From: a virus
IMG/VR virus record: IMGVR_UViG_3300042296_000159
Span: 1-32,557 of that record
DNA length: 32,557 nt
Strand: one strand, 5' to 3'
Each line of letters begins with the position of its first letter. Positions within the stretch are counted from its first letter, which is position 1. Under the pieces are notes generated by a model, which did not search any database, was not told the DNA's origin, and was given only the letters and a program-made list of their open reading frames with translations. Position numbers and translations under genes: made by a program. Positions 46 to 27,724 of the stretch are shown one piece after another.

Positions 46-969
46 ATGAAAATCAAACAAATCACTGAAACTACAACCGCAGGCTCAATAGCTACTGTAA
101 ATTCACCATTAGGTGGCACTCAAAGTAGGGGAAATACTAGCATATATGGTGGCAAAAAAGTAGGAACTCTATTCAAGGGTAAAAAGACTAGTGTCCCATA
201 TGCTAATAGCATCAATGAAAGTGCTGAACTTAGTGAAGCACAACTAGAAGAAGATGATGTTATTGTCGTTCCGGGACAAGGTCGCAAATCAAAAACTGGA
301 TTTGTTCCACATGGACAAAGTCGTATAGACCATGAAGTTGAGATGGCACGTAGTGATTTATTCAGTGCCGCAAAGAATGCTCAACAAGTCTATTCAATGA
401 TTAAAGATGTTAGTGAAGATGAAGGTCTTGATGGTTGGGTACAAGAAAAGATTATTAAAGCTAATGACTATCTAAACACAATACGTGAATACTTAGAAGG
501 TAAACAAATTCAAGGTGTGAATGAAGGACCCGAGTTTGGTTCAAAGTATGCAGAAAAATTAGCACAATATGTTTATAATGTTAGACCTAATCTTAATAGT
601 GAAGATGATGTTTTAAACATAGGATATAAAGTTGCTGTACAAGATTTAGCCAGTCAAACACGTGCTGTATCGTTGTTTAGCAGAGATCAAGATTTCCCTA
701 GTGACTTTGTAAGTGCTTATAGATTCTTACAAAAAAGACGAGGTGTAACAGAAAACAACCAAAGAGGTGATTCACTTGTTACTGACTCATTAAAAATAAT
801 GCGTGGTGCAGAAGTAAGTGATGCTGTAAGAGCACTAACGACCGTACTAGGAAATAGAGAATACAATAGCCGTCGTGGTTTTTACAATTTCTATATTAAA
901 CAAATGATTGATATGTATAGACAACAAGGTGTGAATGAAGGTTCTAAGTCACCTAATAAGAAAGCGTAA
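46..969 (+). CDS. Modular head-associated protein with capsid-targeting-like N-terminus
   Basis: A 307-residue protein; I chose the ATG at 46 because GGAAA sits about 7 bases upstream, whereas the open frame further upstream has only a TTG at 13. It begins MKIKQITE, which resembles the T4 internal-protein leader MKTYQEFIAE with an I-x-E protease site. Residues 1-90 look disordered and are rich in G, S, T and K. Residues 93-155 are predicted-helical and start SRIDHEVEMARSDLFSAA. A second conserved-looking block begins after GVNE at 157-160 (EFGSKYAEKLAQYVYNVRP), and the motif GVNEG returns at 295-299, just before the C-terminus. No enzyme motif is visible. The neighbour at 971 starts one base after the stop and has the same style. 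I infer a prohead or virion-internal protein; the function is unknown. Confidence 0.75.
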   Translation: MKIKQITETTTAGSIATVNSPLGGTQSRGNTSIYGGKKVGTLFKGKKTSVPYANSINESAELSEAQLEEDDVIVVPGQGRKSKTGFVPHGQSRIDHEVEMARSDLFSAAKNAQQVYSMIKDVSEDEGLDGWVQEKIIKANDYLNTIREYLEGKQIQGVNEGPEFGSKYAEKLAQYVYNVRPNLNSEDDVLNIGYKVAVQDLASQTRAVSLFSRDQDFPSDFVSAYRFLQKRRGVTENNQRGDSLVTDSLKIMRGAEVSDAVRALTTVLGNREYNSRRGFYNFYIKQMIDMYRQQGVNEGSKSPNKKA

Positions 970-970
970 T

Positions 971-3772
971 ATGAGCAATATTCTTAAAGGTATAATAAAC
1001 GAAACTAGTCCGCATAATTACGATAGTGATTGGGATTATCAGGATGCTTTAGCACGTAGTGGCAAATCACGTTCTAGCTATCGTTCACAAGAAGATGATA
1101 CGTCTGATGCTGATATTGCATATTCTAAAAAGATGTATCAATTGGGTCAACAACAGAAGGCTGCTAAAGAGAAAGCTCAACGTGATAATGACCATGATAG
1201 ATTAGCAACTGGTACAAATGAAGATGATAGTAATCAAACTAGAATGAGAATGAATGATTATTACGATTTAGCTGAGGCTCTTCAGGAAAAGCTTAGACAA
1301 GCAATTAAGATGGGTAATAACGAACTTGTACATAAATTATCCAAAGAACGTGCTGAATTAGATGCACGTGTTAAAAAATATGGATTAATGCCTGAATCAG
1401 AACAATTAGATGAAATCTCTAATGAGAAATTGGCACAATACAAAACAGCTGCCGCCGCCGACGCAGGCAAAGCTGATAAAGAGGGAGACTTTAAGCGTGG
1501 TGATAAACGTTTCAGTGGTATTGTTAAAGCAACTAAGAAACAATTTGCAAATGATACAAAGAAATCTGGTATAGGTCAAGGTATTTCAGAAGATAGATTT
1601 AACAGTAAACAAGAAGTTATTAACCATTTTGTTAAAAATGGTAAAAGTGCGGCAGCAGGTGCGGCAGCATGGGAACGTGGTTATAGAGGTTCAAATCCTA
1701 ACAAACCAATAGAAATAAAAAAGCCACCTCAAAGAAGTTACCATGATGATTTAGATGATAAACGTTATTCTAATACGTTTGAAAATTTAGGTGATCAACT
1801 AAAATCACAATCTCTAGAAGCATTACAACAAATCAAACAACAAATTGAACAAAAACGTGCCGACGAATTAGCTCAATGGGAACAAGATTTTAGAAATAAT
1901 GTTGCTGGCAAAATGAGAAGCCAACCAATACGTTCACCGGAAGCAACACCGGTTGCACAACCTGGTGAGAAGCATTCAGTATTAAAAGCTAGATTAGCAC
2001 AACTCAATAATGCTATACAAAAACAAGAACTATTGGACAAGTTAATTGATAAAATTGACCGTAAAGGTTTGTTGACTCCAGCAATGCAGAACGATGCTGA
2101 TACTAGAATGCATGTTAAGTATGGTGCAAAAGATAACTATCAATCATTGAATAAAAAGTTAGACAATTCTATTTCAATGTTACAGGATAGATTGTATATA
2201 CGTAAAAAATCAGGTTTAAAAGAATCGCCTAAGAGAATTGATTATGATAGTGATACATATGATAATACTAGAATGGGTAGAGAGTATGGCAAGGCTAATC
2301 TATTTGTAGATCCGGGGTCAAATGAATTTAAAAAAGAAATACATCCTGGAGATCCTGAAGGTGAACGTGGTAGACCAAGAAATCTAAAAGGTATTTCAAA
2401 AAGGTTACCTGCTGATGCGTTTGGTCGTACTAGCGGAGTTGTTCCTGATAGTGCAAGACCTAAATCAAAAGAAGATCCTTTTAAAGGAGTAGATGAAGCT
2501 GATATGAACCGTAGAGGGTTTTTAGGACAAGCAGGCAAGGCTGCAGGTGCTGGCGCATTGGCTGCCGCAGGCTTAGGTGGTGCTAGCAATGCTCAAGCAT
2601 TTAAGGGAACACTTCCTGCTCCTCGTATATCTGAAGATGAGGCTGAAGCTCAAATTAAAGAATTAAGAAGTAAAGCATATAAAGAGTTAGCAAGTATGAT
2701 GTGGAATGTATGGCCTAAAATACTAGACACAACATTTGGCGCAAATACTCCTCAAGATAAGCCAGCTACACCCGATGAAATTGGTAAAATGTTAGGCTAC
2801 AGATTAGCTGAATATGCTGATGACTATAGACAAAAAGTTAGAGCAATTAAAATAGCAGCCGGAGTAAGAGATCCTCAAAGTTTAAATAAAACAACTGCCG
2901 CAATTTATGTTAATGAACAAGAGATGGATGAGGGTTGGAGTCAAAAGTACAAGAGTAGTATCAACTGTAGTCATCCTAAAGGTTTTAGTCAAAAAGCTCA
3001 TTGTGCAGGCAAGAAGAAACACAATGAAAGTATTGACAATGTTATGGAAATGACATGTCCTGATTGTGGTATGTGTGAAACTCACGTAGACCATGCTAAG
3101 TTAGATGAAGCTTGTTGGAAAGGTTATCACAAAGAAGGTAACAAAAAAATGTTTGGCAAAACATATCCTAACTGTGTAAAGAATACTAACGAAGAACAAC
3201 TAGATGAAAAATGCTGGGACACACATAAACAAGTTGGAATGAAAAACAAAGGTGGACGTATGGTCCCTAACTGTGTGCCTAAAGAAAGTGTAGAAGAACA
3301 ACATTCACATAGTGAAAGTTGTCCGCATTGTGGTGGCGAGATGGTTAGTGAAGAACTAATGAATGAAAAGAAAGATGCTTGCTACTACAAAGTAAAGAGC
3401 CGTTATAAAGTATGGCCAAGTGCTTATGCATCTGGTGCGTTAGTTAAGTGCCGCAATAAAGGCGCAAGTAACTGGGGTACAGGCGGAAAGAAAAATGAAA
3501 GCTCTATACTAGAAGGTATTGAACAAGCAGACGAAAGTTTACATGATTGGTTCAATAAAGAAAAATGGGTTCGCATGGATACTAAAGGAAAGATTAAAGG
3601 TCCGTGTGCAAGAGAACCAGGCGAAGGTAAACCAAAATGTTTGCCACAAAGTAAAGCACATAGTCTAGGTAAAAAGGGTCGTGCTAGTGCCGCTCAACGT
3701 AAGCGTAGAGAAGATCCTAATCCAGAACGTAGTGGCAAAGCCATTAATGTTGATACAAAAAAGAAAGATTAA
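971..3772 (+). CDS. Large modular protein with Tat-like motif, Cys clusters and C-terminal DUF5872-like domain
   Basis: A 933-residue, charged and mostly low-complexity protein starting at ATG 971 (MSNILKGIINE), one base after the upstream stop. It is built of short modules separated by [LIVM]-D-E triplets: LDE at 146-148 before EKLAQYKTAAAADAG; VDE at 507-509; MDE at 652-654 before GWSQKYKSS; LDE at 711-713 before ACWKGYHKEG; LDE at 744-746 before KCWDTHKQVG. A Tat-like stretch RRGFLG (514-519) is followed by an Ala/Gly-rich segment and an ASNAQA site near 545. CPDCGMC (696-702) and CPHC (784-787) could bind metal. Residues 856-933 (HDWFNKEKWVRMD, KCLPQSKAHSL) resemble a short phage domain I recall as DUF5872. 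The role is unknown; a processed head-internal protein fits best. Confidence 0.75.
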   Translation: MSNILKGIINETSPHNYDSDWDYQDALARSGKSRSSYRSQEDDTSDADIAYSKKMYQLGQQQKAAKEKAQRDNDHDRLATGTNEDDSNQTRMRMNDYYDLAEALQEKLRQAIKMGNNELVHKLSKERAELDARVKKYGLMPESEQLDEISNEKLAQYKTAAAADAGKADKEGDFKRGDKRFSGIVKATKKQFANDTKKSGIGQGISEDRFNSKQEVINHFVKNGKSAAAGAAAWERGYRGSNPNKPIEIKKPPQRSYHDDLDDKRYSNTFENLGDQLKSQSLEALQQIKQQIEQKRADELAQWEQDFRNNVAGKMRSQPIRSPEATPVAQPGEKHSVLKARLAQLNNAIQKQELLDKLIDKIDRKGLLTPAMQNDADTRMHVKYGAKDNYQSLNKKLDNSISMLQDRLYIRKKSGLKESPKRIDYDSDTYDNTRMGREYGKANLFVDPGSNEFKKEIHPGDPEGERGRPRNLKGISKRLPADAFGRTSGVVPDSARPKSKEDPFKGVDEADMNRRGFLGQAGKAAGAGALAAAGLGGASNAQAFKGTLPAPRISEDEAEAQIKELRSKAYKELASMMWNVWPKILDTTFGANTPQDKPATPDEIGKMLGYRLAEYADDYRQKVRAIKIAAGVRDPQSLNKTTAAIYVNEQEMDEGWSQKYKSSINCSHPKGFSQKAHCAGKKKHNESIDNVMEMTCPDCGMCETHVDHAKLDEACWKGYHKEGNKKMFGKTYPNCVKNTNEEQLDEKCWDTHKQVGMKNKGGRMVPNCVPKESVEEQHSHSESCPHCGGEMVSEELMNEKKDACYYKVKSRYKVWPSAYASGALVKCRNKGASNWGTGGKKNESSILEGIEQADESLHDWFNKEKWVRMDTKGKIKGPCAREPGEGKPKCLPQSKAHSLGKKGRASAAQRKRREDPNPERSGKAINVDTKKKD

Positions 3773-3781: not shown

Positions 3782-4222
3782 ATGTTGTCAGACAATCTAA
3801 AAGTATTACTAGCAAGCACACAAAGTTTTGCTATCAAAACACAAAACTTTCATTGGAACGTAGAGGGAAGTAACTTTCCACAATATCACGAATTCTTTAA
3901 TACATTGTACGAAGATGTAAGTGCTACGATTGATCCTATTGCTGAATATATAAGAATACTAGGTCACTATACTCCTGGCAGTCTAACACGTTATGCTGAA
4001 CTAAGTATCATACAAGACCAAATAAAGATTCCACGTGCTGAATTAATGTTTGTTGAATCATTACAAGATTGTGAAACAATGCTTCAGTTAGTAACAGCAA
4101 TGTTTGATGAGGCAGCTGGTGAGAATCAACATGGTATTGAAAACTATATGGCTGAACTACAAGACTTGTATGGTAAGAAAGCATGGTTCATTCGTTCTAT
4201 ATTAAAAAGAGAACGTGAATGA
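3782..4222 (+). CDS. dps: Dps-like ferritin-family protein
   Basis: A 146-residue four-helix ferritin-like protein, slightly shorter than E. coli Dps (167). Residues 17-36 (IKTQNFHWNVEGSNFPQYH) and 51-61 (DPIAEYIRILG) match the Dps signature. By spacing, the ferroxidase ligands are H24, H36, D51 and E55. The position matching Dps D67 is N40, so iron binding may be altered. Dps proteins form 12-mers that oxidise and store iron and can coat DNA. No capsid-targeting leader is present, unlike the genes on both sides. The stop overlaps the next gene's start (ATGA at 4219-4222), so the endolysin-like gene is co-translated. A phage Dps could guard DNA from peroxide or help pack it; the target is unknown. 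Confidence 0.85.
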   Translation: MLSDNLKVLLASTQSFAIKTQNFHWNVEGSNFPQYHEFFNTLYEDVSATIDPIAEYIRILGHYTPGSLTRYAELSIIQDQIKIPRAELMFVESLQDCETMLQLVTAMFDEAAGENQHGIENYMAELQDLYGKKAWFIRSILKRERE

Positions 4223-5097
4223 GAGCAACAGAGTTTATTACCGAACAAGCAAATCCTAAAGTAGATTTGACTCCAAATTATCCTAACTATCAAGTGTTAG
4301 TGGGTGAGTTTGTCGGTATGAAAAAAAACAGAGCAAGATTTTTAATTGTAGCCTCTGAACTTAAACCAGGTGTGCGAGAGACTGATAAAATTTTTAGAGC
4401 TAGAACTACTAATACACCTATCAGTATTGAGATTGGTAGGGTAAAAAATCGTAATGTAGTAGATGAAGATTTATCACGTAGAGGCTTCTTAGGTGGTTTA
4501 GCTGGTATGGCTGCACTAGGTACTAGAGATACAAAACCTACTGTTAATAAAGATACACCAACGGCACCACAAAAAGAACCTACTGTAACTACATTGAGTA
4601 ACAATCCTCAAATTGAGAGTTTATTACATAAAGCCGCTGTAGCTGCCGGTATAGTTGGTATTGAATTAGCACAGTTTATGGCTCAAACTAAACATGAATC
4701 CTGGAATTTTAGTAGACTAAAAGAAAAGGGTGTAGGTCAAGGCTATTTTGCTAAAAAGTATGACCGTCAATATGCACCACGTACTGCTAAGATATTGGGT
4801 AATAAGCAGATAGGTGATGGAGAAAAATATCATGGTCGTGGATTTATTCAATTGACCGGTCGTGATAACTATCGTATGGCTAGTCAAAGTTTAGGTATTG
4901 ATTTATTAAATGATCCTGATTTAGCAGAACGACCAGATGTTGCAGCCAAGATTGCTATATGGTATTGGAAGACACGTGTTAAACCCTATATAAATAACTT
5001 CAACGATACGAAGGCAGTAACACAAAAGATTAATCCAGCACTACGTGGATTACAAGATAGACATGCAAAGTTTATTGACTACAAAAACATATTATAA
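4219..5097 (+). CDS. GH19 chitinase-type endolysin with capsid-targeting-like leader and internal Tat-like motif
   Basis: A 292-residue protein whose residues 130-292 match the glycoside hydrolase 19 fold used by phage endolysins to cut peptidoglycan sugars. The key stretch is KYHGRGFIQLTGRDNY (203-218). Likely catalytic glutamates are E160 (QTKHESWNF) and E202 (GDGEKYHGRG). The N-terminus MRATEFITE is the closest in the window to the T4 capsid-targeting leader MKTYQEFIAE. Residues 11-80 form a small predicted beta domain. VDE at 81-83 is followed by DLSRRGFLGGLAGMAALG (84-101), a Tat-like motif with a short hydrophobic stretch. The start is fixed by ATGA overlap with the Dps gene. No holin is adjacent. 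It may be a virion-carried lysin rather than, or as well as, the lysis enzyme. Confidence 0.85.
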   Translation: MRATEFITEQANPKVDLTPNYPNYQVLVGEFVGMKKNRARFLIVASELKPGVRETDKIFRARTTNTPISIEIGRVKNRNVVDEDLSRRGFLGGLAGMAALGTRDTKPTVNKDTPTAPQKEPTVTTLSNNPQIESLLHKAAVAAGIVGIELAQFMAQTKHESWNFSRLKEKGVGQGYFAKKYDRQYAPRTAKILGNKQIGDGEKYHGRGFIQLTGRDNYRMASQSLGIDLLNDPDLAERPDVAAKIAIWYWKTRVKPYINNFNDTKAVTQKINPALRGLQDRHAKFIDYKNIL

Positions 5098-5640: not shown

Positions 5641-6216
5641 ATGAGAGCAATAGAACTATACGAATCGGCCGCAAGTGAACTAGCTAAGAAACTTCCTAGC
5701 TTAGAGAAACACGACTATAATACCATTGATAAGCTAATGAAAAACATAGCAAAGAAACATCGTATAACCGGTGATGCATTGCATGATTTGTTTGTTAGAA
5801 AATATCATAAGACTCCAGACAGTTGGATTAAAGATAAACTAGATGAGAGTGAACAAGAAGATTTGAATAACAATCCTATTGTACAGAAGTTTCTTGCTTG
5901 GACAAGTAAGAAGTTGAATTTAGAAAATACTCCAAAGATAGAGTTTAGTTATGATAGTGATGAAGCACAAGAAGGTCATCATACTGGTAGACACAATCCA
6001 GAGACGGGTGAAGTATGGGTTTATTGTGCTAATAGAAATCTAGTAGATATATTACGTACTGTGTTCCATGAATTAACTCATGTACGCCAGGGTGAATTAA
6101 ATATGATTAAGCCGGGTGATAGTTATCCAGGTAGTCCAATAGAAGCAGAAGCGGATGTAATGGCTGGCAAATATATTAAAATATTTGGTAAAGCACATCC
6201 AGAAATATTTCAATAA
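5641..6216 (+). CDS. HExxH zinc metallopeptidase with capsid-targeting-like N-terminus
   Basis: A 191-residue protein. HELTH (143-147, in VFHELTHVRQGE) is a zinc-peptidase motif, and E168 or E170 in PIEAEADVMAG is a likely third ligand, as in gluzincins. The N-terminal half (residues 12-90) is helical, with IAKKHRITGDALHDLFVRKY, and has an LDE site at 67-69. It begins MRAIELYE, like the other five proteins with a T4-type packaging leader. The ATG at 5641 was preferred over an in-frame GTG at 5623 because of this leader; no good Shine-Dalgarno is seen for either. It might process cargo or host proteins after injection, or act during assembly. The specific substrate is unknown, and it is not the T4 gp21-type serine prohead protease. 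Confidence 0.75.
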   Translation: MRAIELYESAASELAKKLPSLEKHDYNTIDKLMKNIAKKHRITGDALHDLFVRKYHKTPDSWIKDKLDESEQEDLNNNPIVQKFLAWTSKKLNLENTPKIEFSYDSDEAQEGHHTGRHNPETGEVWVYCANRNLVDILRTVFHELTHVRQGELNMIKPGDSYPGSPIEAEADVMAGKYIKIFGKAHPEIFQ

Positions 6217-6228: not shown

Positions 6229-7233
6229 ATGTCAATATCAATAACAGGTGGAATATCATTTAGTGGTGGAGTAGGAATAACTGCCGCACCACCATCAACT
6301 CCAACAGCAGGATGGTTTGCAGGTGGGTCTGACGATTCTGGTGTTACTTCAACAGTACAACGAATAACATATGCAACTGATACCGCTACTGCAAGTGTTC
6401 GTGGACCATTAAACGGCACCAGATATCAAAATGCCGGTACCGGTAATTTAAATTATGGATGGTTTGCTGGTTCACGCATTACAGTTGCTATTAGCTCAGT
6501 ATCAAGGATCACCTATGCAACAGATACTGATACAGCAAGTAATCGCGGCCCACTAAGTTATAGTGCTTATAGTATTACTGCGAACGGCACAGATACATAT
6601 GGATGGTTTGCAGGTGGTAAGGATCAATCACCTAGTGATTATTCTACAGTATCCAGAATAACATACGCAACTGATACTGGTACTGCAAGTACAAGGGGAT
6701 CATTATCCGGTTGTTCATATCAAGGTGCAGCATCTACTGACAGCACTACATATGGCTGGATTGCAGTAGGATTTGATAACCCTAGTACTATCGGATACCG
6801 TAGTATCGTAACTAGGATAACATATGCCACTGATACAGTAACATCAACTATTAGAGGTCCATTAAGTTCAACTAGATCATCAATGGCCGGTACTGGTAGT
6901 ACAAGTTATGGTTGGTTTGCCGGTGGATTTTTCGTCGGCCCGCCGACATGGGAGGGAATTTATTATTCTAGGGTAGATCGTATTGATTATGCAAATGATA
7001 CCGCTACAGCAAGTGTTCGTGGTCCGTTAACTAGAACTAATCAAGGTCAAGCAGCATCAACCGATGGAACAACATATGGTTGGTTTGGTGGAGGAAATAA
7101 TTTTTCAACTCCTGCCGGTCCTTTTTCTTCCGTAGACAGAATAACATATGCTACTGATACTGTTACTGCGACTGCACGTGGCCCGTTAAGTTCCGGTAGG
7201 AGGGTTTTTGCTGCCTCATCCGGTATACAATAA
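6229..7233 (+). CDS. Six-repeat YGWFAGG propeller-like tail fibre or adhesin
   Basis: A 334-residue Gly/Ser/Thr/Ala-rich protein. After the leader MSISITGGISFSGG there are exactly six units of about 50 residues. Each has GWFAGG (or GWIAVG, GWFGGG), a variable stretch, [VI]xRITYATDT, then ASxRGPLS and another short variable stretch. Such repeats in phage tail proteins resemble Kelch-like blades, and six units fit one closed propeller. RBS AAAGAG lies upstream of the ATG. The next three repeat genes share the leader but have a different unit (AIFGYG), so this is a distant paralogue. It is probably a receptor-binding or particle-decorating protein. The receptor cannot be inferred. Confidence 0.7.
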   Translation: MSISITGGISFSGGVGITAAPPSTPTAGWFAGGSDDSGVTSTVQRITYATDTATASVRGPLNGTRYQNAGTGNLNYGWFAGSRITVAISSVSRITYATDTDTASNRGPLSYSAYSITANGTDTYGWFAGGKDQSPSDYSTVSRITYATDTGTASTRGSLSGCSYQGAASTDSTTYGWIAVGFDNPSTIGYRSIVTRITYATDTVTSTIRGPLSSTRSSMAGTGSTSYGWFAGGFFVGPPTWEGIYYSRVDRIDYANDTATASVRGPLTRTNQGQAASTDGTTYGWFGGGNNFSTPAGPFSSVDRITYATDTVTATARGPLSSGRRVFAASSGIQ

Positions 7234-7248
7234 TATAAAGGTTAAAAA

Positions 7249-8196
7249 ATGTCAATAACAATAACAGGTGGAATAACATTAAATGGTGGTGGTTGGACTA
7301 TTGAGGCACCACCGGCGGGTATTAGGGCTATATTTGGTTATGGAAATGATGGATCAGTAACATCAATAACTAATTTAGTATCAACTACTGGTGTTGTTGC
7401 CACAGATACCGCAGGGGTAGGGACTGCTAGATATGGATTGGCAGCCGCAGGATATGGCACAGATAAAGCTATATTTGGATATGGATATGCCTCTCCAAGC
7501 GCACGTTCAATCACCAATCTAGTATCAAATACAGGTGTTGTTGCTACTGATACAGCAGGTGTAGGTACTGCTAGAAATGGATTAGCAGCTGCCGGATACG
7601 GATCTGATAAAGCTATATTTGGATATGGTTCTATCCCAGGGGGATCTCCTTACTCAATGACCAATCTAGTATCAAACACTGGTGTAGTAGCCAATGATAC
7701 TACAGGTGTTGGTACTGCTAGATTATACTTAGCAGCCGCCGGCTATGGAACAGATAAAGCTATTTTTGGATATGGGGTTACATACTCTCCAGGTTTCACT
7801 CCTTACTCAATTACCAATCTTGTATCAAATACAGGTGTTGTTGCTACTGATACAACAGGTGTTGGAACTGCTAGAGGAACATTAGCAGCCGCAACCTATG
7901 GCACTGATAAAGCTATATTTGGATACGGGTATAACGGAAGTACTAATGTATCAACTACTAATCTAGTATCAAACACAGGTGTTGTTGCTAGTAATACTAC
8001 AGGTGTTGGAACTATTAGAGGAACATTAGCAGCCTCAGGTTATAGCACTGATAAAGCTATATTTGGATATGGATTTGCCAATAGTGGCATAGTGTCAATG
8101 ACTAACCTAGTATCAAACACAGGTGTTGTTGCTACTGATACTACAGGTGTTGGAACTGCTAGAGAGGAATTAGCGGCCGCAAGTTACGGATCTTAA
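7249..8196 (+). CDS. Six-repeat AIFGYG propeller-like adhesin, copy 1
   Basis: A 315-residue protein with leader MSITITGGITLNGGGWT and six units of 43-50 residues. The unit is KAIFGYG, a variable loop of about 5-12 residues (for example YASPSAR, VTYSPGFTPY), S[IM]TNLVSNTGVVATDTTGV, then GTAR, three variable residues and LAAAGYGTD. Conserved cores and hypervariable loops at fixed positions suggest a binding surface on one propeller face. There is no catalytic motif or signal peptide. RBS AAAGG precedes the ATG. It has two close paralogues at 8459 and 9405. The likely role is receptor or surface binding by tail or head fibres; this is inference from composition and context. Confidence 0.7.
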   Translation: MSITITGGITLNGGGWTIEAPPAGIRAIFGYGNDGSVTSITNLVSTTGVVATDTAGVGTARYGLAAAGYGTDKAIFGYGYASPSARSITNLVSNTGVVATDTAGVGTARNGLAAAGYGSDKAIFGYGSIPGGSPYSMTNLVSNTGVVANDTTGVGTARLYLAAAGYGTDKAIFGYGVTYSPGFTPYSITNLVSNTGVVATDTTGVGTARGTLAAATYGTDKAIFGYGYNGSTNVSTTNLVSNTGVVASNTTGVGTIRGTLAASGYSTDKAIFGYGFANSGIVSMTNLVSNTGVVATDTTGVGTAREELAAASYGS

Positions 8197-8208
8197 CATT
8201 ATGATTAA

Positions 8209-8217
8209 CATAAATAC
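8209..8217 (+). promoter_or_regulatory. T4-like late promoter motif CATAAATAC
   Basis: CATAAATAC lies 22 bases before the ATG at 8240, the same distance as the motif at 15 from its gene. AAAGGA follows as the ribosome binding site. The position between repeat genes suggests a late transcript for the small protein and the downstream repeat proteins. Confidence 0.5.
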
Positions 8218-8239
8218 ATTTATTATAAAGGAAAATAAA

Positions 8240-8455: not shown

Positions 8456-8458
8456 AGA

Positions 8459-9382: not shown

Positions 9383-9404
9383 TTATACAAAGAAAGAATA
9401 AAGA

Positions 9405-17426: not shown

Positions 17427-17437
17427 AGGAATATAAA

Positions 17438-18399: not shown

Positions 18400-19570
18400 A
18401 TTATTTTATATGGGGCTAGAACCCTACAAAGCACGTTATACTCTACAACTACAAGAATGGAATGAACGTGTCTTTAAACGTAGAGGTATTAACTATGTTA
18501 TCGTTCCAGGCGAAACATTAAGTAATGACCAAGCTATTGTGACGGGACAAGTATTAGATGCACATGGTCGTACATACTTTGGTATGTCACAACTTATGAA
18601 TTTAGTTAAAATGATGAAGGCGGGTGAGTGTAGTGATGAAGATATTGTCTATTTTGAAGATATGTTTCAACCGGGTATTGAGAGTTTGCCGTATATACTT
18701 AAGCAAGTTCCTGCTAATCTCCGTCCTCGTATATTTGTCCGTTGTCTTGCTCAGTCAATCGATCCGGATGATTTCGTACATGTATGGGGAATGAGTGAAT
18801 TCATGGGTCACTATGAAAAGATGGTTGATTCATTCGTTGATGGCGTACTAGCTACAAATGAAGAAATGATTATGCATATGAAGATTGCGGGATGGAAGGC
18901 ACCATTATATAACATTAGCGGTCTAGCATTTGGTAAAGATGAAGTGCGTGGTCGTATTGATGGTCCATTAAAACCCTTCAATCAACGTAAGATGCGTGTA
19001 GCATTTAGTGCAAGATGGGATCAAGAAAAACAACCAGACTTCTATATGGATTTGATTGAAACATTTCATTCTAGGTCTAATACTAAGGTAGAGTTCTGCG
19101 TGTTCAGTGGTAGTAAACTGAAAAGCAATAACGAAAGTTATATGGAACGTACACGTAAACTTCAAAGTGAAGGTAAACTAGTTATCTATGAAGATTTGGA
19201 AAAGAATGATTACTATCAACTATTAAATGATACTAGAGTATTGTTTAACTGTGCTTTGCAAGACTGGGTAAGTAATACAGTTAGTGAAGCAGATACATTG
19301 GGTTGTAATGTATTATATCCGGCATATCGTTCATTCCCAGAAACGTTTGCTAATGATAATACACGATTATATATTCCTTGGAGTATTGATGATGCTATGT
19401 CTAAATTACAAAATTTATTGATGGCACCACATAACTATCAAGGACGTATTAGTAAATACAATGATGGGACTATTGACCGTATCTGTGATATTATGGAAGG
19501 CAATGGAGAACAATATTTACGCATGACTAGTGATTATCGTAAATACACAAGAGAAACAAAATACTCATAA
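18392..19570 (+). CDS. GT-B fold glycosyltransferase (first copy)
   Basis: A 392-residue protein starting at ATG 18392, overlapping the previous stop by 8 bases. The C-terminal half has features of GT4-like glycosyltransferases: MRVAFSARWDQEKQPDFY (core Rossmann start), LVIYEDLEKNDYYQLLNDTRV and WVSNTVSEADTLGCNVLYPA, the place of the nucleotide-sugar-binding EX7E region. The N-terminal domain binds the acceptor, which is unknown. It follows the cytidylyltransferase-cupin gene directly, so it may use that activated sugar. Targets could be host surface glycan, phage protein or hypermodified DNA. Confidence 0.7.
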   Translation: MRKLFYMGLEPYKARYTLQLQEWNERVFKRRGINYVIVPGETLSNDQAIVTGQVLDAHGRTYFGMSQLMNLVKMMKAGECSDEDIVYFEDMFQPGIESLPYILKQVPANLRPRIFVRCLAQSIDPDDFVHVWGMSEFMGHYEKMVDSFVDGVLATNEEMIMHMKIAGWKAPLYNISGLAFGKDEVRGRIDGPLKPFNQRKMRVAFSARWDQEKQPDFYMDLIETFHSRSNTKVEFCVFSGSKLKSNNESYMERTRKLQSEGKLVIYEDLEKNDYYQLLNDTRVLFNCALQDWVSNTVSEADTLGCNVLYPAYRSFPETFANDNTRLYIPWSIDDAMSKLQNLLMAPHNYQGRISKYNDGTIDRICDIMEGNGEQYLRMTSDYRKYTRETKYS

Positions 19571-19585
19571 CATAAAGGAAATAAA

Positions 19586-19780
19586 ATGAGCGCACAAAAT
19601 GATATTGAAACAAGCTTGGCAGCATATAATACTGAGAATGATAAGTTTAACAAAGGTAATGCAGCCGCTGGTACACGGGCTCGTAAGGCATTAGCAGAAC
19701 TAGCTAAAGCGGTTAAAGCACGCCGTAATGAAATTACAGCAGAAAAAGCCGCACGTGCAGAAGCAAAAGCTAAGGCTTAA
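19586..19780 (+). CDS. Hc1-like small basic histone-like protein
   Basis: A 64-residue Ala/Lys/Arg-rich helical protein with AAAGGAA upstream. The core NKGNAAAGTRARKALAELAK resembles the Hc1/histone H1-like motif of Chlamydia (KGNKAASQRVRT), and AVKARRNEITAEKA follows. Hc1 proteins condense DNA. In a phage it may help compact the genome or silence host DNA. The protein is short enough that a chance compositional match cannot be excluded. Confidence 0.6.
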   Translation: MSAQNDIETSLAAYNTENDKFNKGNAAAGTRARKALAELAKAVKARRNEITAEKAARAEAKAKA

Positions 19781-19782
19781 CC

Positions 19783-20010
19783 ATGGCTCGCAAGAAAATT
19801 CAACTTGCAGAAGTTAGTTCATTGCCAGACTCAGTACAAAAAGGTAGTCACTTAACGGTGACTACTTATCCTGATGGCAAAACAGAATTAGAATGGGATT
19901 GGGACGCATTAGTTAATGAGGTACGTGAAGCCTGCGCTAGTGTTGAACTTGCCAATACAAAGCCGGCAGTTAAGGCTAAATCAAAAAAATCAGTTGCTAA
20001 AACAAAGTGA
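19783..20010 (+). CDS. Small unknown protein with basic tail
   Basis: A 75-residue protein starting 2 bases after the Hc1-like gene. The middle HLTVTTYPDGKTELEWDWDA is beta-hairpin-like, followed by a helix LVNEVREACASVE and a Lys-rich tail AKSKKSVAKTK. It may bind nucleic acid or the Hc1-like protein. No family is recognised. Confidence 0.55.
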   Translation: MARKKIQLAEVSSLPDSVQKGSHLTVTTYPDGKTELEWDWDALVNEVREACASVELANTKPAVKAKSKKSVAKTK

Positions 20011-20017
20011 TAAATAC
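20009..20017 (+). promoter_or_regulatory. T4-like late promoter motif GATAAATAC
   Basis: GATAAATAC overlaps the stop of the preceding gene and is directly followed by a perfect inverted repeat. It is 59 bases before the FolE start. If active, it would place 7-deazaguanine synthesis genes under late control. Confidence 0.45.
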
Positions 20018-20041
20018 TTGTGTTACACAACGGTAACACAA
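20018..20041 (+). promoter_or_regulatory. Perfect 9-bp inverted repeat in the FolE leader
   Basis: TTGTGTTAC (20018-20026) and GTAACACAA (20033-20041) are exact reverse complements separated by ACAACG. No T-run follows, so it is not a standard terminator. It starts 1 base after the late-promoter motif and would form a stable hairpin at the start of the folE mRNA, or serve as an operator. It could stabilise the mRNA or bind a repressor. Confidence 0.6.
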
Positions 20042-20076
20042 TATCAAAACAAAACCATCACAAAGGAAGGTTATCT

Positions 20077-20760
20077 ATGAGTTATAATAAAACAAAAACA
20101 GATCCAGTACTGGGTCTACAAGTACACGAACACTTAGTTAGAATGGGTGTTGAGACTCCTACAATCAAGTCTTTGGTTCCGGATCGTAAAGATAAGATTG
20201 CGGTCATTGAGCCGTTATTTGCCGAGATTATGAAAACACTTGGTTTAGATTTATCTGATGATAGTCTTATTGAAACACCTAAACGTGTTGCCAAGATGTA
20301 TGTCAATGAAATATTTTGGGGTCTCGATTATGAAGCATTCCCTAAATGTACAACAGTTGACAATAAGATGCAATACAACGAAATGGTTGTAGAGCGTAAT
20401 GTTAATGTTCAATCTAACTGCGAACATCATTTTGTAGTCATTGATGGATTGGCTACAGTAGCTTATGTCCCTAAACAAAAGGTGTTAGGGCTTAGTAAGA
20501 TAAACCGTATTGTAGAATATTTTAGCAAAAGACCTCAAATTCAAGAGAGGTTAACAGAGCAAATTTTTCACACCTTACAGTTCATCCTTGATACAGAAGA
20601 TGTTGCAGTTATGATTGACGCACAACACTATTGTGTAAAATCACGCGGCGTAGAAGATACAGGTAGTAGCACTGTTACTTGTCGTTTAGGTGGTGGTTTC
20701 AAAACTGATCCATCAGCACGACAAGAGTTCTTACAAATTGCTAACAAAGGTTGCAAATAA
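20077..20760 (+). CDS. folE: GTP cyclohydrolase I (FolE)
   Basis: A 227-residue enzyme that turns GTP into dihydroneopterin triphosphate, the first step of both folate and 7-deazaguanine synthesis. Zinc ligands are C115 and H118 in NCEHHFV and C186 in [25 protein letters not shown] and [20 protein letters not shown] are typical of the family, and length matches E. coli FolE (222). I chose ATG 20077 because AAGGAAGG lies upstream; the open frame also extends back to 20020. QueD and QueE follow downstream, so its product probably feeds preQ0 synthesis. The stop overlaps the next start (TAATG). Confidence 0.95.
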
Positions 20761-20996
20761 TGGGCTTTCGTAAACAAATGGACTATAACAGTGTTCATCA
20801 TCAAATCTATATGAGTGGTGTAGAACTACATAGTAACTATAATGACGGATTTAATCAATTTGAAATCAAAAAAGACTTACATCGGATCAAATGGCTATTG
20901 GATGAGATTATAGCCGATAGTCCTACATTTGCCGGTGAAGATGAATTCTTAAAAGAACACGAACAAACTAAGATGTGGAGAACTCTTTCAAAATGA
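20760..20996 (+). CDS. Small unknown protein in the 7-deazaguanine operon
   Basis: A 78-residue protein starting at the ATG that shares one base with the FolE stop. [20 protein letters not shown] is followed by a helical stretch KKDLHRIKWLLDEIIADS and an acidic end. No known motif is found. The stop overlaps the next gene (ATGA at 20993). Tight coupling on both sides suggests it is expressed with FolE and the cytidylyltransferase. Function unknown. Confidence 0.6.
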   Translation: MGFRKQMDYNSVHHQIYMSGVELHSNYNDGFNQFEIKKDLHRIKWLLDEIIADSPTFAGEDEFLKEHEQTKMWRTLSK

Positions 20997-21466
20997 TTTT
21001 CAATCACATTAAAGAACTAAAAGCACAAGGTAAAAAGATTGGTATCACTTTCAGTACATTTGACTTGCTACATGCAGGGCATGTTGCTATGTTAAGTGAA
21101 GCTAAGAATCATTGTGACTATTTGATTTGTGGGTTGCAAACTGATCCTACTATTGATAGACCTGACACTAAGAATAAACCCATTCAAAGTATTGTAGAGC
21201 GACAGATTCAACTTGCGGCTTGTCGTTATGTTGATGAAGTTGTTGTCTATCAAACTGAACAGGACCTTATTGACCTATTACTTATTCTACCATTAGATGT
21301 TCGCATTTTGGGTGTAGAGTATGCAGATAAAGAGTTTACTGGAAGATGGGAGGGCGGTGAGCGTGGCATTGAACTTGTGTTCAATGGTCGTGACCATAGT
21401 TTCAGTAGCAGTAGTTTACGTAAACGGGTAGCTGATGCCCAAATCATTAACACTCTTAATAAATAA
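20993..21466 (+). CDS. Cytidylyltransferase-like (HxGH) enzyme
   Basis: A 157-residue protein of the nucleotidyltransferase family with the core TFDLLHAGHVAML (22-34), in which H27 and H30 form the HxGH motif. HSFSSSSLRKRV near the C-terminus corresponds to the family's ISSTxIR-type phosphate-binding loop. Family members make CDP-glycerol, ADP-heptose or related activated alcohols and sugars. It is shorter than, and only distantly similar to, the cytidylyltransferase domain at 17638. The C-terminal part has an unusual aromatic stretch FTGRWEGGERG. Its substrate is unknown; position between FolE and QueD may be coincidental or may mean it activates a DNA-decorating group. Confidence 0.75.
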   Translation: MIFNHIKELKAQGKKIGITFSTFDLLHAGHVAMLSEAKNHCDYLICGLQTDPTIDRPDTKNKPIQSIVERQIQLAACRYVDEVVVYQTEQDLIDLLLILPLDVRILGVEYADKEFTGRWEGGERGIELVFNGRDHSFSSSSLRKRVADAQIINTLNK

Positions 21467-21470
21467 GATA

Positions 21471-21524
21471 ACCGGTCTCTTTGGGCTCATCCCGGTATAC
21501 AAACTCTGCGTCCTATGCTATAAT
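21471..21524 (+). promoter_or_regulatory. Intergenic hairpin and sigma70-type promoter before QueD
   Basis: ACCGG (21471-21475) can pair with CCGGT (21492-21496) as a weak terminator-like hairpin without a T-run. A promoter follows: TATACA (21496-21501), 17 bases, then an extended TGC-TATAAT (21516-21524). AGGAGA just before the ATG at 21543 is a strong ribosome binding site. QueD and QueE therefore probably have their own promoter, separate from FolE. Confidence 0.55.
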
Positions 21525-21542
21525 ATAACATAGGAGAACACA

Positions 21543-22025
21543 ATGGCAAACAAAAAATTCTTTTCAACAAAAACATACAGACAAATAGGTCCTGTCGCAT
21601 ATCGTCAATGGCGTGCTGACAGTCATTGTAACTTAATTCATGGCTATGCTATGAGTTTTCACTTTGAATTTGAAGCAGATACATTAGATGCCCGTAACTG
21701 GGTAACTGACTTCGGTGGATTACGACCACTTAAAGATAAACTAGAAGAATGGTTTGACCATACATTATTAGTCGCACAAGATGACCCAATGCGTGAACAT
21801 CTATTAGAACTAGGTCGTTTAAAACTAGCAAAGATTACAGAAGTAGAACGTACTGGTTGTGAGGGTATTGCTGACTTCTTATATGAATACATTAACACAA
21901 TCTTTTTACCTAACTGCGGTAGTGAAGAAGCAAAACGTGTATGGTGCTGTAGAGTAGAGGTCCGTGAGACTGATAGTAACATGGCAGGACGAGGTGGTCA
22001 CAGGGAAGACGGAGAGTTTGCATAA
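21543..22025 (+). CDS. queD: 6-carboxytetrahydropterin synthase-like QueD
   Basis: A 160-residue homologue of QueD/6-pyruvoyl tetrahydropterin synthase. ADSHCNLIHGYAMSFHFEFEA (from 26) carries the zinc and catalytic region: H28, C29 and H33. The usual HGH is HGY here, which I believe is normal for one subfamily of longer QueDs with VTDFGGLRPLKD. FDHTLLVAQDD (71-81) supplies the second active-site His. It converts the FolE product into 6-carboxytetrahydropterin. The stop overlaps the QueE start (TAATG), so the two are co-translated. Confidence 0.85.
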   Translation: MANKKFFSTKTYRQIGPVAYRQWRADSHCNLIHGYAMSFHFEFEADTLDARNWVTDFGGLRPLKDKLEEWFDHTLLVAQDDPMREHLLELGRLKLAKITEVERTGCEGIADFLYEYINTIFLPNCGSEEAKRVWCCRVEVRETDSNMAGRGGHREDGEFA

Positions 22026-22873
22026 TGGCACAACTAAAAATTTCAGAACTATTCTATAGTATACAAGGAGAAGGCCGATATATGGGAGTTCCCTCCGTGT
22101 TCCTAAGAACATTTGGTTGTAACTTTACATGTGCAGGCTTTGGCATGCCTAAAGGTGAAGTAAGTAAAGAAGTAGAAGATATTGCCGCAAGGGTTCACTA
22201 TTATGATGATTATAAAAAACTACCGTTGGTCAGTACAGGGTGTGACAGTTATGCTTCATGGGATCCTAGGTTTAAGCATCTTAGTCCTGTTCGCCCCACC
22301 GATGATATTGTTGACGACATTATGGCTATGCTTCCTCACAATCGCTGGATGGATGAGCACCTTGTCATCACTGGCGGTGAACCTCTTCTTGGATGGCAAA
22401 GAGCGTATCCAGAACTGCTTTCAAACGAGAAGATGAGGTCATTGAAAGAGATTACATTTGAAACTAATGGTACACAAGAACTAAGTCAAGACCTCTCTAT
22501 CTATCTACAACAATGGAAGATTAACAGAGAAAAGAATGCACTTACATTTAGTGTTAGCCCTAAACTAAGTATCAGTGGTGAGAAGTGGGAAGAAGCAATT
22601 TGTCCTAGTATTATTCGTCAATATGAAAGTATTGGCTTTGTATATTTAAAGTTTGTTATCGCTACTAAAGAAGATGCATTAGAAGCTGATAAGGCAGTAC
22701 AAGAGTTTCGTAATGGTGGATTTAGAGGCCCTGTATACTTTATGCCATGTGGTGGTGTAGAAAGTATCTATAGTTTGAATGCTAAGAATGTTGCTATTGA
22801 AGCAATGAATCGTGGTTATCGTTATAGTGATAGACTTCAAGTCCCACTGTTTAAAAACGAGTGGGGCACATAA
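22025..22873 (+). CDS. queE: Radical SAM 7-carboxy-7-deazaguanine synthase QueE
   Basis: A 282-residue radical SAM enzyme that contracts the pterin ring to 7-carboxy-7-deazaguanine. FYSIQGEGRYMGVPSVFLR at the N-terminus is typical of QueE, and ITGGEPLL (115-122) is the SAM-binding GGEP motif. C32 and C36 (GCNFTC) are followed by C73 (GCDSYASW), so the cluster reads CX3CX36C instead of CX3CX2C. The inserted segment (37-72) is absent from E. coli-type QueE. I take this as a displaced third ligand, an inference. QueC is needed to reach preQ0 and is not found here; it may be elsewhere in the phage or supplied by the host. Confidence 0.85.
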   Translation: MAQLKISELFYSIQGEGRYMGVPSVFLRTFGCNFTCAGFGMPKGEVSKEVEDIAARVHYYDDYKKLPLVSTGCDSYASWDPRFKHLSPVRPTDDIVDDIMAMLPHNRWMDEHLVITGGEPLLGWQRAYPELLSNEKMRSLKEITFETNGTQELSQDLSIYLQQWKINREKNALTFSVSPKLSISGEKWEEAICPSIIRQYESIGFVYLKFVIATKEDALEADKAVQEFRNGGFRGPVYFMPCGGVESIYSLNAKNVAIEAMNRGYRYSDRLQVPLFKNEWGT

Positions 22874-24631: not shown

Positions 24632-25461
24632 AAAAGATTTTAATTACAGGATGCTCAGGATACATTGGCAGTCATCTATGCAAAATGCTTGAGAATGAAT
24701 ATGAAGTTCATGGCTTAGATATTGATGAACCACAAGCGCCATTGAATGAGTTTTATCGTTGCGATATCAATAGACAATTTGCTATTCCGGGTGATATTGA
24801 ATATGATTGTGTAATCCATTTAGCGGCATTAGTTCGTGTAGGTGAAAGCGAGCAGATGCCTATCAAATACTATATCACTAACTTGAATGGTACAATGAAT
24901 GTAGTTAACAAGATAAAGACAAAGAACTTTATCTTTGCTAGTACAGGTGCCGCACAAGATTGTGCTAGTGCTTATGGTATCAGCAAACGTGCCGCAGAAG
25001 ATGTGGTCAGAGAATATTGTACAACCCATCGTCAAACACCATATACAATCTTTAGATTTTATAATGTTATTGGAAGCACCGTCGTGGCTCCCACTAACCC
25101 CGATGGGTTAATGTACAATTTAATTAAAGCTAAAGAGTCGGGTGAGTTTACTATTTACGGTAATGATTATGATGTGTCCGTTATTGATGGTACATGTATA
25201 CGTGATTATGTACATGTTAATGAGATATGTGATGCATTGATGCAAGCAATTGAAAAGCCTAGCAATAGCTTTGAATGCTTAGGACATGGTGTAGGATATA
25301 CTGTACAGGAGATTGTTGATTTATTTCAAAAAGTCAATGAGTGTAGTTTTGATGTAAAATACGGCCCAAGGAGAAAGGGTGATTTACCTAGTTCTGTACT
25401 AGCTAATGTATCACCCTATATGCGTAATCTATACACTATGGAAGATTTATTGAAGGTTTAG
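24628..25461 (+). CDS. GalE-like NAD-dependent sugar epimerase/dehydratase
   Basis: A 277-residue short-chain dehydrogenase of the extended family. GCSGYIGSHLCK (8-19) is the Rossmann NAD motif, ASTGAAQ (104-110) the catalytic Ser/Thr region, and Y116-x3-K120 the active-site pair. RDYVHVNEICDALMQAI matches the GalE end pattern. It is shorter than bacterial GalE (about 338) with a reduced C-terminal substrate domain. It could supply UDP-galactose or a similar sugar to the glycosyltransferase made from the overlapping gene. It ends 4 bases into the convergent minus-strand gene. Confidence 0.8.
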   Translation: MKKILITGCSGYIGSHLCKMLENEYEVHGLDIDEPQAPLNEFYRCDINRQFAIPGDIEYDCVIHLAALVRVGESEQMPIKYYITNLNGTMNVVNKIKTKNFIFASTGAAQDCASAYGISKRAAEDVVREYCTTHRQTPYTIFRFYNVIGSTVVAPTNPDGLMYNLIKAKESGEFTIYGNDYDVSVIDGTCIRDYVHVNEICDALMQAIEKPSNSFECLGHGVGYTVQEIVDLFQKVNECSFDVKYGPRRKGDLPSSVLANVSPYMRNLYTMEDLLKV

Positions 25462-26831
25462 TGTTTCAATAATAATGTAGACAATACATCTTGTCTATTA
25501 GCACTGATATCACCCTCACCTGGTGCAATGATAACATTCCATTTCTTAATGTTATTCTTTTGTGGAGTAGCCATCATCTCATTATAATCAATGATACTAT
25601 CACGTTTTAAATTATATTGATTTGCCAATCTGTCTTTTAATTCTTCTAATGCGGCTGCGTCTTTTGGTTGCCAAGCACCATCAGCGGTCTTATCTAACTT
25701 ACCATCCTTATCCTTCTTCAATAAGTCATAGAATAACTTACTTGGAACAATACGACTATTCTTAGTTACATCTAGTTGTGGATCTTGTTGTTTAACTTGT
25801 TTCTCTTGACTAGTACTTGCACCCTCACTCCAATTAACAATAAAGTTACTTGGCTTTTGACCTAAGGCTGCATCCGCTATTTTTGTATAAGCATAGAACT
25901 TAACATCAGGATGTGATGCCGCTAATTTGAATGCCAAATCCATATATTCTGGACTAAAGAAATCACCAGCATCATGCCAACGAATAGTTAGATTGTAACC
26001 ACCCTTTTGTGCTAGCTTTTCTTCTTTTGTGATTTCTGCACTTAGTTGATTAAAGAATCCATCTGGATCATTCAATAAGAAAGTAAGAATTCTTCCGTCA
26101 CTTAACCAAGGACCTTCAAACTGAACCTTACCACCCTTCATAGCGAAACAATCTACTTTACATGATCCAGCACCCGGACATGTATTAACTACTATGAGTT
26201 CGTTTGTACCTTCATCTAATGCTATACCGACTAGTGCGGCAAAACCAATGTTATAGAATTGTTCTAGTTCACCATTAGAATGTTTCATCTTCTCATTTTG
26301 TTTAAGAAGTTTCTTTGGGCGAACACCTAATGCTGTTTTGATTTGGTCTGTATCGTAGCGTTTACCTTCTTCATTGTAGTATTTGACTACACTTGAGCGA
26401 TGGATGTAAGGAAGTTTATATTTGTCTGTTTTACCCTTTTCACGATTACGAATTCTATCTAAGTAATCATCTAGTTCTTGGCCTTTTAGTTCACGTGTTT
26501 GTGCTGGTAGTTTTGTTGCTTCTGCTACAGGTTGTTGTTTAGTAGCAGGTTCCATTGTAGCACGAATCTTGCCGATAGCTTGACCTATACCAGCGGCTCT
26601 TTTTTCAGCCTTTTTAAATTGATTTTTAGGATCTTGTTTAAGTCTATCTCTAGCATCTGTATTAGATTTTCTAACATAGCTTGCTAATGTTTGAGGAGAC
26701 AATTCATCTAATTGTTCATCGGGCAAATCATCAGATTGAGCCAGAAACTGATCCATGCTCATAACTTTGATGCCACCTACAGCACCCGGTAATTTGGGTG
26801 TTGCACCCTCAAATAGTTCTACAAAATTCAT
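25458..26831 (-). CDS. GP88-family protein with capsid-targeting-like N-terminus
   Basis: A 457-residue protein. Residues 182-330 match the phage gene product 88 family as I recall it, with CPGAGSCKVDCFAMKGGKV (C218, C224, C228), GGYNLTIRWHDAGDFFSPEY and KFYAYTKI. The three Cys in a CX5CX3C arrangement could bind metal or an Fe-S cluster. Its role is unknown; database entries sometimes name it a replication initiator. The N-terminus is MNFVELFEGATPK, like the packaging leader of the other cargo proteins. LDELSPQTLASYVRKS (41-56) is a module shared with the 971 protein, which has LDEISNEKLAQYKTAA. It is convergent with the epimerase gene. Confidence 0.75.
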   Translation of the reverse strand: MNFVELFEGATPKLPGAVGGIKVMSMDQFLAQSDDLPDEQLDELSPQTLASYVRKSNTDARDRLKQDPKNQFKKAEKRAAGIGQAIGKIRATMEPATKQQPVAEATKLPAQTRELKGQELDDYLDRIRNREKGKTDKYKLPYIHRSSVVKYYNEEGKRYDTDQIKTALGVRPKKLLKQNEKMKHSNGELEQFYNIGFAALVGIALDEGTNELIVVNTCPGAGSCKVDCFAMKGGKVQFEGPWLSDGRILTFLLNDPDGFFNQLSAEITKEEKLAQKGGYNLTIRWHDAGDFFSPEYMDLAFKLAASHPDVKFYAYTKIADAALGQKPSNFIVNWSEGASTSQEKQVKQQDPQLDVTKNSRIVPSKLFYDLLKKDKDGKLDKTADGAWQPKDAAALEELKDRLANQYNLKRDSIIDYNEMMATPQKNNIKKWNVIIAPGEGDISANRQDVLSTLLLKH

Positions 26832-27724
26832 TTCTTAAGATTCCTAATATATTGTTCAGCTAGCATTACTAATTCTTCCATTTGCTCTACACTCTCGCAA
26901 TTCCATCTACGTAGTGCTAATGCTTTAGGGGTAGGTTTACCATTAGGCTTTTTCATAGGACCTTTGTTACCACTCATACGAGCACAAAAACTCTTGCGGC
27001 GTTTGGCAGCTTTTGATCCAGGCTTTAATTTACTAGGTTTGGTAGTAACTGCTGTTTGCAATTTGCTGCCTGGATTTTCCCTACGATATGCTTTCACTGC
27101 TTTACGGCTCATGCCGGACGTTTTGTCTTTCTTATTGACTTTGTTCCAGTCTTCATCGATACCTTGCTGAGGTGTTGTACCATAATGGCTCATATTATCA
27201 TAGGTTGACCTACCTAAATGTGTGTTGATTAAAAACATCTGAGCATCCTTAAGACTCTTATGATTCATTTGTTTTATAAAATTACCATCTTTTCTTCTAG
27301 TTGTAAAGGGAGGTTGACCTGTCCTACTATATATATGTCCTATTTTTTGACCATCGTATATAAATTCATATTCTTTCCATGGATCTTTTGCTTCATTCAT
27401 ACCCTGTTGACCTAGTGGAATATTAGCAATATCATTTACAGTAATATTAACTAAATTAGTTGTTCCATTTGCTATACGGGCAAAGTGTCCCTGATTGTGT
27501 AAATTCATCATTGCGTAATAAAGATAGTTTGGGTCAATAACATCAGTTTTTACAACTTTAATGCCAATCCTTGATGGATCAAATTCTTTGAGAGGCTTAC
27601 CCACAGTCTTATCACTACCCTTACGCACTAACCAAAAGTCAGCGTCTGGCATATTAGTAGCAATTTTTGCTATGTCTTTTAGTCTGGTTCCTGAACTCTC
27701 TGATATAATTTCGGTAAATCTCAT
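26828..27724 (-). CDS. Protein with HsdS-like specificity domain and DUF6321-like basic module
   Basis: A 298-residue protein. Residues 14-104 look like half of a type I restriction specificity subunit (HsdS) recognition domain: FWLVRKGSDKTVGKPLKEFD, then VIDPNYLYYAMMN and NITVNDIANIPLG. No methylase or restriction partner is nearby. Residues 113-185 contain a small repeat-free segment DPWKEYEFIYDGQKIGHIYS. MNE at 109-111 and IDE at 189-191 separate modules. Residues 233-280 (KPGSKAAKRRKSFCARMSG, ALALRRWNC) match the basic DUF6321-type phage module. It starts MRFTEIISE, a T4-like packaging leader. It overlaps the GP88-like gene by ATGA. It may be a DNA-binding cargo protein. Confidence 0.7.
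   Translation of the reverse strand: MRFTEIISESSGTRLKDIAKIATNMPDADFWLVRKGSDKTVGKPLKEFDPSRIGIKVVKTDVIDPNYLYYAMMNLHNQGHFARIANGTTNLVNITVNDIANIPLGQQGMNEAKDPWKEYEFIYDGQKIGHIYSRTGQPPFTTRRKDGNFIKQMNHKSLKDAQMFLINTHLGRSTYDNMSHYGTTPQQGIDEDWNKVNKKDKTSGMSRKAVKAYRRENPGSKLQTAVTTKPSKLKPGSKAAKRRKSFCARMSGNKGPMKKPNGKPTPKALALRRWNCESVEQMEELVMLAEQYIRNLKK

Follow-up and report, generated by a model that had tools for sequence, protein, structure and literature searches.

Six leader-bearing genes in a jumbo phage fragment

The window analysed in this study is a stretch of 32,557 bases (IMG/VR record IMGVR_UViG_3300042296_000159, positions 1 to 32,557), and our subject is a short N-terminal leader, similar to the capsid-targeting sequence (CTS) of phage T4, which is found on six of its genes. 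It is one piece of the genome of a large T4-like freshwater jumbo phage. Its DNA polymerase has 42–48% identity to those of Sinorhizobium phage Phosso, Agrobacterium phage Atu_ph07 and the RaK2/CBB group. A near-identity DNA search with the first 24 kb of the window matched no phage record, and neither a tRNA nor an Rfam match was found on scanning the window. Among viral contigs, two long ones are closely related to the window, namely G002 (G2, 348,701 bases) and G001 (G1, 524,565 bases). Gene blocks are present twice in G001, which possibly combines the genomes of two related phages, so the counts from G001 are partly redundant.

A simple gene caller gave 43 genes in the window. The initial annotation had described the leader at the starts of six proteins; all six were located where it had placed them, and the starts at 46, 971, 4219 and 5641 and, on the minus strand, at 26831 and 27724 were also picked by this gene caller. 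The proteins are called P1 to P6 here, and their features are as follows.

46–969, plus strand: P1; leader MKIKQITE (46–69), then TTTAGSIATVN (70–102)
971–3772, plus strand: P2, a modular protein of 933 residues; leader MSNILKGIINE (971–1003)
1415–1591, plus strand: the "LS" module of P2 (ISNEKLAQYKTAA...), with LDE directly before it
2498–2599, plus strand: buried segment of P2 resembling a twin-arginine translocation (Tat) signal, ADMNRRGFLG...SNAQA, directly after VDE
2933–3769, plus strand: C-terminal modules of P2 (GWSQKYK, CWKGY, CWDTH, DACYYKVKSRY, SLHDWF)
4219–5097, plus strand: P3; leader MRATEFITE (4219–4245), N-terminal domain, Tat-like segment (4468–4521) after VVDE, GH19 domain
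5641–6216, plus strand: P4; leader MRAIELYE (5641–5664), HELTH motif seen by eye
25458–26831, minus strand: P5; leader MNFVELFE (26808–26831), LS-type module after QLDE, GP88 domain (PF17338)
26828–27724, minus strand: P6; leader MRFTEIISE (27698–27724), segment with a weak match to type I restriction specificity subunits, DUF6321 (PF19846)

All six leaders have 8–11 residues, with I or L at subsite P3 and E at subsite P1 of the presumed cut. The leaders in G2 are the same or closely similar (MKIKQITE, MSNILKGIINE, MRATEFIIE, MRAIELYE, MRFTEIITE and MNFVELFE). The six proteins had been called unrelated, which is not wholly correct: a module with 22 of 54 aligned residues identical is common to P2 and P5, and an RRGFLG segment occurs in both P2 and P3. 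The earlier labels GH19 for P3 and GP88 for P5 were retained, whereas the HsdS-like label of P6 corresponds to a weak match and the metallopeptidase label of P4 to the HELTH motif, with no Pfam match over the cut-off. P1 and P2 likewise had no Pfam family over its cut-off. P4 and P6 had no solved relative by sequence, and the predicted structure of P6 was poor (predicted local distance difference test, pLDDT, 37.9).

Leader, proposed cargo and prohead protease

A strict rule for the leader was drawn up after viewing the six leaders and a loose list of candidates. It demands K/R/N/S at position 2, L/I/V/F/Y at subsite P3, L/I/V/F/Y/E/Q at subsite P4 and Glu at positions 8–11, with no Pro before the Glu or just after it. 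In the window, the rule was followed by 6 of the 43 gene starts and by none of 218 internal Met (one-sided Fisher p = 1.5e-5). The corresponding numbers were 20 of 386 and 9 of 1700 in G2 (p = 2.8e-9) and 34 of 638 and 7 of 2655 in the partly redundant G1 (p = 1.6e-18). With a rule fitted to these very genomes, the three enrichments prove little alone, and in the later tests the rule was either applied unchanged to other phages or not used. The remaining 37 window genes failed the strict rule, in agreement with the earlier remark that neighbouring genes with other jobs do not have the leader. A bare [LIVFMY]-x-E near the N-terminus was also tried as a test and was dropped, since its enrichment was only weak; therefore, the rest of the leader matters.

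In a rule-free census, viral contigs were scanned for DNA encoding only Met-Arg-Ala-Thr-Glu-Phe (MRATEF), which gave a sample of at least 86 matches in at least 80 loci. Among the matches listed, 82 of 86 were the start of a reading frame 60 or more residues long; 66 of these 82 frames went on to [LIVFMY]-x-E, with the Glu at position 9 in 65. The bodies behind the MRATEF leader fell into at least 30 groups without detectable mutual similarity; among the matches listed, the majority of members had Glu at position 9 in 22 of 30 groups, compared with a background of 5.6%. In the group-weighted profile of the same matches, position 7 was Ile, Leu or Val in 25.6 of 30 groups and position 9 was Glu in 21.0 of 30, and positions 8 (commonest Thr, 9.8) and 10 were free. 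Judged by its residues, this profile is the expected look of a putative cut site after hydrophobic-x-Glu. Among the 34 genes listed, the leader codons show synonymous variation and the upstream sequences have no evident relationship, an indication that selection acts on the residues.

The collected related loci contained 141 distinct strict-leader proteins in 55 clusters, a count whose short members include likely false positives. For the Pfam scan, we chose 30 proteins from the leader list and added 10 census proteins; one of these 30, L181, fits a looser rule only. Leader-bearing proteins over the Pfam cut-off matched iron/manganese superoxide dismutase (SOD), NUDIX, NT5C nucleotidase, Amidoligase_2, GH19, phage lysozyme with LysM, a leucine-rich repeat variant, DUF6321 and DUF6267. 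The rest of the 40 scanned proteins had no Pfam match over the cut-off, and one weak Kinase-PolyVal match lay below it. The leader-bearing SODs are located at 34804–35358 (minus strand) in G001, at 221434–221988 (minus strand) in G002 and at 1265–1795 in contig L250; these related SODs carry two unlike leaders, and the SOD of L250 was found independently of that of G1. An ADP-ribosyltransferase guess for one leader-bearing family is not claimed here, as the model was poor (pLDDT 50.5) and a search gave no solved relative.

Both long relatives encode a Peptidase_S77 (gp21-type) protease and a gp23-type capsid protein. In G2, the order is Peptidase_S77, a gene in scaffold position and the major head protein, with S77 two genes before the head protein, and in G1 the same capsid sequence pattern is found two genes after S77. 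Among the matches listed, S77 was found in 6 of 13 large MRATEF contigs and Gp23 in the same 6; the other 7 had neither and may be fragments or other phages. The capsid protein of G2 reads QLLAE followed by SSAGTTTAGNIATLN at its likely cut, and P1 reads MKIKQITE followed by TTTAGSIATVN. By sequence, the part of P1 behind its leader is like the part behind the presumed cut in the major capsid protein of the relatives, and the pattern searched was otherwise seen in one fibre-type protein only when the proteins of the window, G1 and G2 were searched. A similar observation was made in the cultured T4-like cyanophage S-CREM2 (OR473000.1), in which the N-terminal part of ORF160 (GATGFTGAAAPEGPVAGYDP) resembles, by eye, the likely mature capsid start of the same phage (DGFTGAAAPGGPNAGFDP); this likeness parallels that of P1 in the group of the window.

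The published virion proteome table of S-CREM2 gives coordinates (PMC10665884). The unchanged strict rule was followed by 6 of 28 detected non-structural proteins, 0 of 24 structural proteins and 3 of 167 undetected proteins (one-sided Fisher p = 3.3e-4), and the looser rule by 8 of 28, 3 of 24 and 21 of 167, respectively (p = 0.03). The rule-positive detected proteins are three enzymes, namely an SAM hydrolase (MKDFDSFLEE), an APH/ChoK-like kinase (MKRFDAFLTE) and a cytidylyltransferase (MKNFSSFLTE), together with three small proteins; among the latter, the case of MKQIIIHE is unconvincing. The motif is also present, outside the rule, in the detected proteins ORF136 and Cas9-like ORF12; in the latter, which is annotated as Cas9, the leader-like motif ends with FMAE at residue 25 and is not at the N-terminus. 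Virion-detected ORF160 matches P2 (49% over 110 residues, E 3e-22), virion-detected ORF137 matches P6 (37% over 182 residues, E 2e-26), and the C-terminal modules of P2 are common to cyanophage proteins, one of these virion-detected. As a check, the strict rule was run on 67 T4 genes from one 50-kb stretch, where it finds ipII, ipIII and vs.6.

Module borders and buried Tat-like segments

The motif [LIVM]-x-E marks many module borders. The LS module came directly after [LI]-x-E in 15 of 15 real contexts (16 were listed, and G1_244177 was dropped as a chance regular-expression match); in 5 of these the site is the N-terminal leader, which directly precedes the LS module in some P2 relatives. 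The GWSxKYK module was preceded by the motif in 9 of 9 contexts, one of which is a shortened gene call, and the RRGFLG segment in 8 of 9. For the SLHDWF (LxDWF) module the number was 4 of 11, and for LPSLEKHDY it was 0 of 16, the leader site being just past the searched stretch. The DUF6321 pattern gave no match in this module-context search. After the upstream piece RKKSGLKE, the sequence continues in a different way in each of P2, G2 and contig L101.

Junctions, at which a shared segment starts after unrelated sequence, were then counted. The motif was present on both sides in 485 of 882 junctions (55%), compared with 22% and 13.5% after the position was shifted into the shared part, and it was present in the majority of members in 60 of 162 junction clusters. 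For this analysis, proteins with more than 45% G+N+S+T+A were left out, longer matches were required, and the search range (−3 to +9) was set after viewing a first junction analysis. The latter gave 484 of 5119 both-sided junctions, against about 57 random and about 278 shifted, and was rejected because it was swamped by repetitive fibre-type proteins.

At the level of these motifs, the predicted leader cut site is interchangeable with the internal sites where modules are swapped. In modular members, the N-terminal site would be the first of a series of [LIVM]-x-E sites, and since the motif lies at many internal module boundaries, P2-like proteins are probably cut into several pieces. One result weighs against internal cutting as a general rule: the 38 leader-bearing proteins had no general excess of [LIV]xE (161 compared with 146 expected, ratio 1.10; 1.16 for 629 others). 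The standouts were P1, with 9 motifs compared with 4.0 expected, and P2, with 16 further motifs compared with 8.2 expected by shuffling; therefore, several internal cuts are argued for P1/P2-type proteins only. This missing excess also suits another explanation, in which [LIVM]-x-E consists of linker residues favoured at recombination joints and the N-terminal site alone is cut, and so do the 60 of 162 clusters and the 4 of 11 contexts of SLHDWF. The unbroken series of the LS module, with 5 sites being the leader itself, the equally complete series of GWSxKYK and the drop of the junction motif from 55% on shifting speak against it, and we regard the linker explanation as possible but doubtful, and the cutting of P1/P2-type proteins at module borders as the better account.

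Tat-like segments were found in mid-protein, directly after [VL]-x-E, in P2, P3 and relatives (L041, L067 and L101). By eye, several relatives have the full Tat-like layout (S/N-R-R-x-F-L, hydrophobic stretch, A-x-A), for example VVE, then DLSRRGFLGGLGAAALGVTDVAQA, then K. The segment of P3 in the window is without the A-x-A end and reached 13.4 bits with Pfam TAT_signal, below the cut-off of 22.7. A Tat signal is typically N-terminal, whereas these segments lie within the full-length proteins. Directly before the RR, 6 of 9 proteins have a TTA, ATC or ATA codon in place of a start codon, so that only cleavage could make the Tat-like segment N-terminal there. An internal translation start is excluded in these 6 by the codons and is possible in 3 of 9 (P2 type, ATG). 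We tentatively suggest that the prohead protease may unmask the buried Tat-like signal, and that the modules of these phages may form a library, with exchange at sites of the protease, from which any module could be added to the packed set. A cut inside the head would make the signal of P3-type GH19 hydrolases and of P2 N-terminal; the enzyme would then stay in the cytoplasm of the producer cell and be exported only in the next cell.

Proposed packaging, rival explanations and known systems

We believe that the leaders are very probably T4-type capsid-targeting propeptides, cut by a protease after the Glu and carried by varied packed cargo, some of which enters the next cell. A leader of about 8–11 residues ending with hydrophobic-x-Glu would recruit different late proteins into the prohead scaffold core, the S77 (gp21-type) protease would cut after the leader Glu and leave the proteins in the head, and some of them would enter the next cell with the DNA. 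For this phage we infer targeting, packaging, cutting and injection, and for the injection of cargo the precedent is T4. The proposal of the initial annotation, T4-like capsid targeting with a gp21-type cut and varied cargo, is thus largely supported by the leader enrichment, S77 in the relatives, the dissimilar cargo, the site profile and S-CREM2, with the phage S-SZBM1 standing against it.

The ten-residue CTS of T4 and its cleavage by gp21 are already in print, as is the proposal that T4-like phages pack various proteins with it (PMC9026906; PMC5694885). The CTS of the T4 internal proteins IPI–IPIII and the leader here have in common a short N-terminal propeptide, Glu at the cut, different bodies behind it and an S77 protease in the phage group, and the ipII/ipIII start MKTYQEFIAE shares the core EFI[A/T]E with the leaders here. 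In its sequence features the leader is of the T4 CTS type, and the system appears to work like that of T4. Compared with the T4 internal proteins, there are here many dissimilar proteins, including enzymes, the leader is often one residue shorter, and the motif is present at many module borders. The start of T4 gp24, MAKINELLRE then STTT, resembles P1-type starts (MKINQIVQE then TTTS), but P1 is unlike gp24/gp23-type proteins in having no capsid-protein match.

Several other results weigh against this interpretation. The gp21-type protease that it needs was found in both long relatives and not in the window fragment, which has no Peptidase_S77. S-CREM2 is a distant relative of the window phage, and its authors list the enzymes as virion-associated while allowing for co-purification (PMC10665884). 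ORF160 and ORF137 of S-CREM2 have no leader at their own N-terminus; this indicates that the leader is not the sole way in, and their detection supports the module families as virion proteins and not the leader itself. Virion presence of leader proteins, which the initial annotation had inferred, was enriched in S-CREM2, but this was not repeated in S-SZBM1 (PMC9146016), where, over the first 207 annotated genes (150 of 178 kb, with 28 of the 30 detected proteins), the strict rule was followed by 1 detected protein of 28 and by 4 of the 179 undetected ones. The detected S-SZBM1 cytidylyltransferase has the leader MRFRQFIIE. Two undetected proteins, MKSFKSFLSE and MKTFKQYITE, are very CTS-like, and the second has a DUF6321-type segment related to P6. 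With only 30 proteins, the S-SZBM1 proteome may be of low depth; it is still evidence against packaging by the leader. The strict rule also had false positives (T4 vs.6 and S-SZBM1 147, annotated as RecA) and missed T4 ipI.

It is also conceivable, but in our opinion unlikely, that the leader is a packaging and prohead-protease signal on components of the scaffold core, which stay in the head or leave it and do not act in the next cell. Such propeptides direct core proteins in T4, where IPIII has an effect on the assembly of the head (PMC9026906), and packaged DNA could be bound by basic modules like DUF6321; however, the SOD, NT5C, NUDIX and GH19 cargo has no obvious role in head assembly. 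That the common N-terminus merely enhances translation or is left over from gene duplication and recombination, with no role at the protein level, is very improbable, for although the ATGAGAGCA DNA is strongly conserved among the genes compared, the residues hold despite synonymous codons and unrelated-looking upstream DNA, and the conservation is that of hydrophobic-x-Glu with a free middle, which is all that the unlike leaders MKIKQITE and MSNILKGIINE keep.

Two other regions of the window were noted by eye. At 6229–10331, four of five neighbouring genes encode repetitive proteins (with IFGYG...TNLVSNTGVVATDT repeats, for example), which are probably fibre-type paralogues. The genes at 15186–22873 resemble a queuosine-type pathway (Tgt-, FolE-, QueD- and QueE-like), possibly for DNA modification.

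Polyvalent proteins, known from phages and conjugative elements (Iyer et al. 2017, PMC5512222), are similar to the proteins here in being multidomain, with swapped domains, delivered together with DNA and in some cases cut and packaged. They differ in that mosaic domains are described in the parts of that publication covered, and not borders set by a prohead-protease motif. For the virion-associated enzymes of S-CREM2, the CTS-like leaders were found in this study, and the leader is not mentioned in the parts of the publication covered (PMC10665884). In the portions of the open-access literature searched, no paper was found on this leader over varied jumbo-phage cargo or on protease-site module borders. 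Within that literature, the breadth of the cargo, the leader on virion-detected S-CREM2 enzymes, the equivalence of the leader with internal border sites and the buried Tat-like signals are new.

Phage proteins that are delivered together with the DNA are hard to tell from sequence. A readable address tag would make unnamed jumbo-phage genes a testable list of packed proteins, such as SOD, Nudix hydrolase and wall enzymes, and if the module borders are protease sites, this would account for the assembly and reshuffling of these proteins.

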